This document shows, piece by piece, positions 48,222-52,238 of a DNA stretch of 64,000 bases. Where the stretch lies: NCBI GenBank assembly GCA_019232905.1, contig JAFANA010000016.1, positions 1-64,000 on the forward strand, written 5' to 3'. Below the pieces are notes generated by a model, which worked only from the letters and a program-made list of their open reading frames with translations, made no database searches and was not told where the DNA came from. The translations under genes and the position numbers were made by a program. The DNA comes from Vulcanimicrobiota bacterium. Its GTDB lineage: Bacteria; Vulcanimicrobiota; Vulcanimicrobiia; Vulcanimicrobiales; Vulcanimicrobiaceae. How positions within the stretch are numbered: the first letter of the stretch is position 1; every line of letters starts with the position of its first letter.

Positions 48222-49082
48222 TTAAAACGCCAGCGCGTGAAACCCAACGTATCGCGAGAGATCGATTTGTGGTTGATCCGTCGCGAAAATCCGTACCTGA
48301 TCGAGCGTTAACCCGATTCGTACTGCAGCCCGCATAATGCGCACGTTGCTGCCCGGTACGAGCGCCATGCACCACGACGCACCGTACGTTCGTTGCAGCG
48401 ACATCAACCCGAACCCGAAGAACTGCATCAGATACGCACCGGAAGCCGCCACGAGCGGGCCAATCCGTCCGTCGGGCCAGACGTACGTATAGCCGACGAT
48501 TTCATCGTTGAGCACGAACGCGGTGCCCGTCGCTAACTGCGCGAATGCGATGTGATCTTGCGGCCGCGCCGTGCCACGCACCTCGCGATCGAGTGCGTTG
48601 ATTGAGGGCGCGTGTTTGTGCGGATCGATCGGTACCGTCGAGAAACGATAGTCGCCGGCGGCCATTTGCACGAGGTCTTCTTCTCGCGGAATCTCGCCGG
48701 TGATCCGCAGCACGGGCACATGCAATCCCATCCCGCGCCGCAAAAAGAACGCAAGCGAACCGACGTCGTCGGCTTCGATCATTCCCGCGAGCGACGCGTC
48801 GCCGGAATCCGCCGTTGCTTGGCGCATGAGCTTCCACCCGAGTCCGGCATTGCGAAACGACGGCTCGACGTAGAGATCGGCGACGAACCATTCCGTTTCG
48901 AGCGCGTGCGCAAATGCAATTCCCACGGGCTCGTCGACATCGCGCGCGATCCAGCAGCCAGCAGGTGCCGATTCCGCAAGATTGACATACAGTTGCCGGC
49001 TCTGTTCATCGGACCAACGCCGAGCCGCGAGCTTTCGAACCTCGGCGTCCTTTGCTGCAACGATGGGCGTCGAATCGATCAT
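48222..49082 (-). CDS. GNAT family acetyltransferase
   Basis: VADLYVEPSFRNAGLGWKLMRQA acetyl-CoA binding pattern. Confidence 0.75.
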   Translation of the reverse strand: MIDSTPIVAAKDAEVRKLAARRWSDEQSRQLYVNLAESAPAGCWIARDVDEPVGIAFAHALETEWFVADLYVEPSFRNAGLGWKLMRQATADSGDASLAGMIEADDVGSLAFFLRRGMGLHVPVLRITGEIPREEDLVQMAAGDYRFSTVPIDPHKHAPSINALDREVRGTARPQDHIAFAQLATGTAFVLNDEIVGYTYVWPDGRIGPLVAASGAYLMQFFGFGLMSLQRTYGASWCMALVPGSNVRIMRAAVRIGLTLDQVRIFATDQPQIDLSRYVGFHALAF

Positions 49083-49669
49083 GCAGCGAGCGCCTCCAGC
49101 AACGCGCGCGCCGCTCTCCCGCGGTGGCTCAATTCGTTCTTCTCCGCTTCAGGGATTTCGCCGAACGTCTTCCCGATCGGCGGATAGTAAAAGATCGGAT
49201 CGTATCCGAAGCCGTTGGTGCCGCGCAATTCCGTGGTGATCTGCCCGCGCACGTCGCCTTCGACGACGATTTCGCGCCCGTCGGGCGTGATCAACGCCAT
49301 CACGCAGATAAAGCGTGCGCCGCGACGATCTTCGGGTACGTGACGAACCTCGCTCATCATCGTCTCTAACCGTTGCGGCCACGGCGTGGTTTCTCCCGCG
49401 TACCGGGCCGAAAGGACTCCCGGGCCGCCGTCGAGCGCATCGAGTTCGATACCGCTGTCGTCCGCCAATACCGCGTCATGAATCCCGGCGAGCTGCAGTT
49501 GCTCGCGAAGTGCGCGCGCCTTTAACAGCGCGTTGGCGACATAACTGTCGTCGCCTTCGACCGGATCGATGTAGCCGTCATAGGTGTGGAGGTCGATGGG
49601 TGAACCGGCAAGCATGTTGCGGATCTCCCCAAGCTTGCCGGCGTTCTTCGTCGCGAGGTACGTTTTCAC
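49079..49669 (-). CDS. rdgB: XTP/dITP diphosphatase (RdgB/HAM1 family)
   Basis: ATKNAGKLGEIRNML, VLADDSGIELDALDGGPGVLSARYAG, GTNGFGYDPIFYYPP. Confidence 0.95.
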   Translation of the reverse strand: MKTYLATKNAGKLGEIRNMLAGSPIDLHTYDGYIDPVEGDDSYVANALLKARALREQLQLAGIHDAVLADDSGIELDALDGGPGVLSARYAGETTPWPQRLETMMSEVRHVPEDRRGARFICVMALITPDGREIVVEGDVRGQITTELRGTNGFGYDPIFYYPPIGKTFGEIPEAEKNELSHRGRAARALLEALAA

Positions 49670-49687: not shown

Positions 49688-50356
49688 TCAGGCTTCGAGA
49701 ATCTTCTGCAGCAGGACGTCTGCCGGAACGGCCCCTTCGAGCGCGTCGTCATTGTTGTCGTTGATCACGGTGCGCGGCACACCCATCACCGTATAGCGGC
49801 TCGCAATGTCGGTAAATTCTTGGGCTTCGATAATTTCCGCGGTGATACGCGGCGAGATCATCGAAAAGGTGACGGCCAAACTGGCCATCGGCGGGCAATA
49901 CGGTCAACTCGGGGTGACGAACACCTTGATGTCGACCGGTTTCGAAAGTTCACCGAGTTTCGCGCGAAGTACGTCCGGCACGTCTTCACCTGCGCTGCCG
50001 GCTTCCAGCACAGCCGACATGAACGTTGCAAACTCGTAGCCGCCCGGAAATCCCATGAAACGCGCGCGACGTTGTGCACGACCGCCGAGAACGATGGTCG
50101 GCACCCGGTTGACGTCATCTTCTTCGGCCTGCTCGAGGTTCTCGACGAGGTCGGCGATCGTGACGTGAAGCTTTGGTATAATCTCGCCGAGCTCTTGTAA
50201 GAGGTCCTCAGCAGCTTCGCACGTTTCGCATGGAATGACGCCGGGAACGGCCAGAGCGCTCGCGCGCTGCGTGTAGAGCGTAACATCGACGTCCTGCGTC
50301 AACTTCTCACCTAATTGAGCAAGCGTCGCACGATCTTTTTCTTTGATCATTGCCAT
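49688..50356 (-). CDS. Putative selenoprotein: two-domain glutaredoxin/PDO-like protein, UGA read as Sec in a UPYC motif
   Basis: Two track ORFs are in one frame separated only by TGA at 49904-49906: ...KVFVTPS-U-PYCPPMASLAVTFSMISPRITAEIIEAQEFTDIASRYTVMGVPRTVINDN...; N-terminal half has CETC; SECIS-like hairpin immediately downstream. Confidence 0.85.
49871..49889 (-). promoter_or_regulatory. Candidate bacterial SECIS element
   Basis: GAUGGCC-AGUUU-GGCCGUC: 7-bp stem, GU-containing apical loop beginning 22 nt after the UGA. Confidence 0.75.
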
Positions 50357-50408
50357 ACGACCATCATAGGAACGTTCCGCGCACATGCAAGCCCCTGACA
50401 CAGCAGGG

Positions 50409-52238
<1,830 letters not shown>

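Follow-up and report, generated by a model that had tools for sequence, protein, structure and literature searches.

Selenoproteins matching the profile TIGR02187 form a catalogued family, listed as "Homolog of AhpF N-terminal domain (Grx-like domain protein)" with a UxxC motif, and the selenocysteine (Sec) type of this family has also been reported in the Asgard archaea (PMC9312934, PMC13188914). A 2007 study recovered a "Glutaredoxin-like" TGA cluster that includes Carboxydothermus CHY_0740 (PMC1914089). Characterized archaeal protein disulfide oxidoreductases (PDOs) are supplied with electrons by an NADPH-dependent thioredoxin reductase and hand these on, a peroxiredoxin being one acceptor in Sulfolobus (PMC7278568).

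Here, we analyzed a stretch of 64,000 nucleotides (hereafter the window) and consider it highly probable, judging from sequence comparisons, that one of its genes encodes a genuine selenoprotein of the TIGR02187 family, with the predicted Sec at residue 151. A preliminary description of this DNA implied that a Sec-type PDO would be novel, which was overstated: because Sec forms of TIGR02187 are already catalogued (PMC9312934, PMC13188914), the window gene is a further member of a known selenoprotein family. The make-up of the phylum, with 149 species and one very large family, tentatively points to Eremiobacterota, and no paper linking that name with selenocysteine came up in the literature searched. 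New is the isolated occurrence of a PDO in its class, at the junction of lepA and rdgB, which suggests horizontal gain.

A Single Reading Frame Interrupted by TGA

The minus-strand frame 50356..49688 comprises 222 codons with a single internal TGA at 49906-49904 (codon 151; table 1). The two minus-strand entries of the ORF listing, 49904..50401 and 49688..49888, are one frame divided by this TGA; sequence, frame and TGA are all as first described, and the expectation that standard gene callers would divide the gene is borne out by the two halves obtained from ORF calling. The translation around the TGA reads DIKVFVTPS-U-PYCPPMASLAV, with V as the preceding residue and PYCPPMASLAVTFSM following the U. 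The GTG at 50401, given as the start in the ORF listing, is probably not the true start; we consider ATG 50356 the likely start codon, because the resulting MAMIKEKDRATL aligns with MTLIPDKDKQAL of the relative L036. Coding quality is kept beyond the TGA, as had been proposed, with homology on both sides and a GC3 of 0.64 before and 0.72 after it. A Pfam scan of ten other TGA-interrupted frames in the window found no domain spanning the TGA, which counts against a general reassignment of this codon.

Table 1. Features of the Sec-PDO Locus (positions in the window)
Feature	Coordinates	Strand	Remarks
Sec-PDO CDS	49688..50356	minus	ATG 50356 to final TGA 49690-49688, 222 aa; start by alignment with L036
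In-frame UGA, predicted Sec151, first position of C-terminal UPYC	49904..49906	minus	Homologue column TGA/TGC/TGT
C-terminal active-site motif UPYC, residues 151-154	49895..49906	minus	
N-terminal active-site motif CETC, residues 43-46	50219..50230	minus	
SECIS-type hairpin GAUGGCCA-GUU-UGGCCGUC	49871..49889	minus	8 bp, loop start 22 nt past UGA
lepA (elongation factor 4), upstream neighbour	50409..52238	minus	ORF and synteny; conserved block in relatives
rdgB-type NTP pyrophosphatase, downstream neighbour	49079..49669	minus	ORF and synteny

Protein Family and Predicted Fold

The NCBIfam profile TIGR02187 (PDO_seleno_TRX; curated cut-off 185 bits) gave a full-length match to residues 21-237 of the translated stretch with 197.8 bits, and 190.2 bits when the genome was searched with read-through of the stop. 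The Pfam Thioredoxin_3 match (residues 157-235 of the translated stretch) crosses the TGA, and the AhpF models score well under their cut-offs (in one case 59 bits vs. 503). The AlphaFold model (pLDDT 92.6, pTM 0.89) has Aquifex 2ayt and 2ywm as its top PDB matches in Foldseek (TM 0.87-0.89; 2ayt 0.89), followed by 1a8l and 1j08, and is predicted to contain two thioredoxin-fold domains, one with CETC (43-46) and one with UPYC (151-154). Profile, predicted fold and alignment thus confirm the two-domain PDO/glutaredoxin-like architecture with an N-terminal CETC.

Among 50 aligned proteins, 42 retain both cysteines of CETC. At position 151, all 50 have Cys or Sec; at position 154, 47 have Cys and three have Ser. 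The Ser at this resolving position (CPYS or CPHS) occurs in the Cys-type proteins L138, L116 and L142, which represents a monothiol C-terminal site.

Sec and Cys at the Same Alignment Column

Homologues were collected from the 393 genomes of the class containing the Dehalococcoidia metagenome-assembled genome (MAG) behind L036; 55 of these encode PDOs above the cut-off, many with exactly one TGA. Of the 52 rows examined (L036 and L098 are the same MAG sequence), 26 have TGA at the codon of residue 151, 21 have TGC and five have TGT, and no further codon occurs; one row carries an additional TGA, which lies only near its start or upstream of it. The exchange of predicted Sec and Cys in this column is the pattern that defines selenoprotein families. 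The Cys homologues that the preliminary description had asked for at the U are therefore half of the rows (26/52), and with Cys or TGA throughout, the column agrees with its placing of the TGA exactly at the first Cys of a C-terminal CPYC and supports Sec as the first residue of UPYC.

A SECIS-Type Hairpin and Its Distribution

Published rules for bacterial SECIS (bSECIS) elements call for a loop of 3-9 nt, a stem of 4-16 bp, a distance of 16-37 nt from the UGA and a minimum free energy of -7.5 or lower, with a G among the first two loop nucleotides, after which a G or U is common (PMC13188914). The window gene, for which a search for such an element had been proposed, contains a hairpin within all of these limits (loop GUU, 8 bp, spacing 22, -11.4); its stem starts fourteen nt past the UGA, and its energy is about -12.9 kcal/mol including flanks and -11.4 bare. 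Among synonymous recodings, 2.6% give at least 8 bp at the same place and 8.6% anywhere allowed, and the free fold of the 54 nt from the window has a z of -1.37, which is weak taken alone. By itself, the window hairpin is moderate evidence for Sec.

Most Sec rows contain a hairpin of the GGCCA-GGC-UGGCC type at the same spacing. Of the Sec rows, 21/25 have a 4-bp stem capped by a G[G/U] loop at that spacing, vs. 1/25 of the Cys rows, and across five phylogenetically independent Sec/Cys pairs the stem-loop goes with Sec in four or five and never the reverse, it being noted that a sign test on five pairs cannot give p < 0.05. The strict perfect-stem bSECIS rules are passed by 7/26 Sec rows and 2/26 Cys rows, few of the former because several stems contain mismatches. 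The Arg codon in the loop is AGG in 14 of the 20 Arg of Sec genes, whereas CGC accounts for 17 of the 22 in Cys genes. A Fisher test of AGG against other Arg codons gives p = 1e-5 with relatedness ignored, the contrast is confounded with clade, and on the independent pairs AGG alone is uninformative; we therefore do not count it as proof. Strong selA matches were found in 21/25 Sec-PDO genomes vs. 20/32 Cys-PDO genomes, a difference in the expected direction that is not decisive in draft genomes.

The Host Genome Encodes the Selenocysteine Machinery

The host genome is a draft of 3.29 Mb in 144 contigs, 83% complete. A single contig, C71, encodes selA (E 1e-132), selB (312.8 bits; cut-off 242) and the tRNA-Sec selC (71 bits; gathering score 47) with the anticodon UCA, and selD is found on contig C18 (L011, 5390-6313, plus strand, 385 bits). 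The absence of selA, selB and selC, named earlier as an observation that would speak against Sec, is thus not what we found, as these genes, and selD with them, are present in this genome with strong matches. The selD gene itself encodes the Sec form of selenophosphate synthetase, its frame containing a TGA at SCAG-U-ASKLG. A formate dehydrogenase alpha (Fdh-alpha)-like gene (L143; contig C143, 47573-48340, minus strand), which scores under its family cut-off, has a TGA at NQARI-U-HSSTVPSLG (with HSSTVPSLGTSFGRG after the U), the place of Sec in Escherichia coli Fdh, and is probably another selenoprotein of this genome by its sequence. As selA was found in 99 of the 117 genomes of the host class, the Sec trait is near-universal there.

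On contig C71 (L001, 1447-3114), selA is flanked by a thioredoxin gene immediately upstream and by selB downstream, and weak thioredoxin matches beside selA were also seen in G012, G013, G004, G005, G001, G014 and others; this suggests a trx-selA-selB block conserved in the host class.

Genomic Context and Distribution

The neighbours of the PDO gene are what we take to be lepA and rdgB, both names being recognized from sequence similarity. Only the host genome (G000) encodes a PDO above the cut-off among the 117 genomes of its class, and within the phylum such proteins were found in 2/149 genomes, the second being a Cys form in G127. In most members of the host family with both genes in the locus examined, the end of lepA and rdgB are no more than a few dozen bases apart, and an acetyltransferase-like gene follows rdgB in many; this junction lacks a PDO in the relatives, and in the host the PDO gene lies between the two. 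In G074, a genome of the same genus (L046, 209-1501), an unrelated ORF of 430 aa occupies the lepA-rdgB gap, so that the junction may take up foreign genes. The lepA of G074 is 98% identical to that of the host over the 64 residues compared, which indicates that the contig belongs to the host lineage and is not foreign.

Phylogenetic analysis placed the window protein among mostly Sec-type rows, forking with L129, L130 and L132 (support 87/88) on a long branch (1.11); the Cys-type PDO of G127 groups with other rows, apart from it. Clustering of the homologue neighbourhoods for functional hints revealed no redox partners among the recurring neighbours, which look like a glycosyltransferase and a CDP-alcohol phosphatidyltransferase.

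Alternative Explanations

A decaying Cys-type pseudogene with an ordinary nonsense mutation, or a sequencing or assembly error changing TGC or TGT to TGA, could in principle produce the same frame, given a draft assembly, two codons that each differ from TGA by one base, and a PDO gene that is alone in its class. However, this would need a chance strike on one codon in 222 (a probability of ~1/222 for a random nonsense change at exactly codon 151), the same at which 26 other members have TGA, in a genome holding the complete Sec machinery and next to a SECIS-type hairpin of the kind found in Sec members and absent from Cys members, with the remaining frame intact and GC3 maintained; we regard it as very improbable. 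Hardly credible is a pair of genes, encoding an N-terminal protein of 150 aa and one of 66 aa from ATG 49888, or read-through with another amino acid: the ORF listing does give the halves as separate ORFs, but the second would be left without the UPYC active site, PYC preceding ATG 49888, the TGA lies within both the TIGR02187 match and the C-terminal thioredoxin domain, and each homologue is one protein carrying Cys or TGA at that position. The pseudogene, assembly error and two-gene readings were accordingly rejected on the codon column, the Sec machinery, the hairpin and the TGA-spanning homology, in favour of a Sec codon.

With respect to origin, the Sec-PDO gene was probably gained horizontally at the lepA-rdgB junction, already as a Sec type, which is the simplest account and is suggested by its being the sole clear PDO among the 117 class genomes and by the adjacency of lepA and rdgB in most relatives. 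Vertical inheritance with loss in all other sampled class members could draw on the second, Cys-type PDO of the phylum and on the long branch of the window protein, which points to no recent donor. Yet a PDO is found in so few genomes of the phylum, and that of G127 groups apart from the window protein; since most family members examined have lepA and rdgB side by side, vertical descent would call for many precise losses, and we consider this history unlikely. Under horizontal gain, we lean towards a ready-made unit, the UGA with its built-in SECIS element, having moved between distant bacterial lineages to give the class its only clear PDO. Such a gene could have functioned immediately, since the recipient's own SelB and tRNA-Sec were already in place.

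Proposed Mechanism and Significance

Based on the anatomy of the gene and the machinery of its host, SelB with Sec-tRNA(UCA) would bind the hairpin just past the UGA, and selenocysteine would be inserted as the first residue of the C-terminal UPYC. By analogy with characterized PDOs, the protein is predicted to have disulfide oxidoreductase activity, in which the selenol of Sec151 would act as the nucleophile attacking disulfides of substrate proteins, Cys154 would resolve the selenenyl-sulfide, and Cys43 and Cys46 of CETC may relay electrons from an enzyme of the thioredoxin reductase type.

As ORF calling cuts the gene in two, both the enzyme and its selenium dependence would go unnoticed. 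The locus adds a well-supported Sec-PDO to a lineage with near-universal selA, and the comparison of 26 TGA with 26 Cys rows shows the Sec site going together with an intact short stem and a G[G/U] loop 22 nt past the UGA. The case offers a convenient test system for the exchange of Sec and Cys and for the transfer of selenoprotein genes.

Comparison with Known Systems

The window protein shares its fold over the whole length with the solved PDOs of Aquifex aeolicus (2ayt/2ywm) and Pyrococcus (1a8l) and with 1j08 (TM about 0.86-0.89), as well as the two CxxC-type sites; it differs from them in that they have Cys at the Sec position in three alignments, and the identity is ~30%. It has the tandem thioredoxin fold in common with the N-terminal domain of AhpF (1zyn, 4o5q, 6il7), but is free-standing, whereas in AhpF the domain is joined to a flavin reductase part. 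The PDOs of the class of the Dehalococcoidia MAG are 28-42% identical to the window protein, with Sec and Cys mixed at the same column, and most of their Sec members have, like the window gene, a SECIS-type hairpin at the same spacing; their gene neighbours differ from the lepA and rdgB found here. With the catalogued TIGR02187 selenoproteins, the window protein has in common the profile, the Sec as the first residue of UxxC and the two thioredoxin-fold domains, whereas its gene is set apart by occurring in another lineage, isolated, and between lepA and rdgB.
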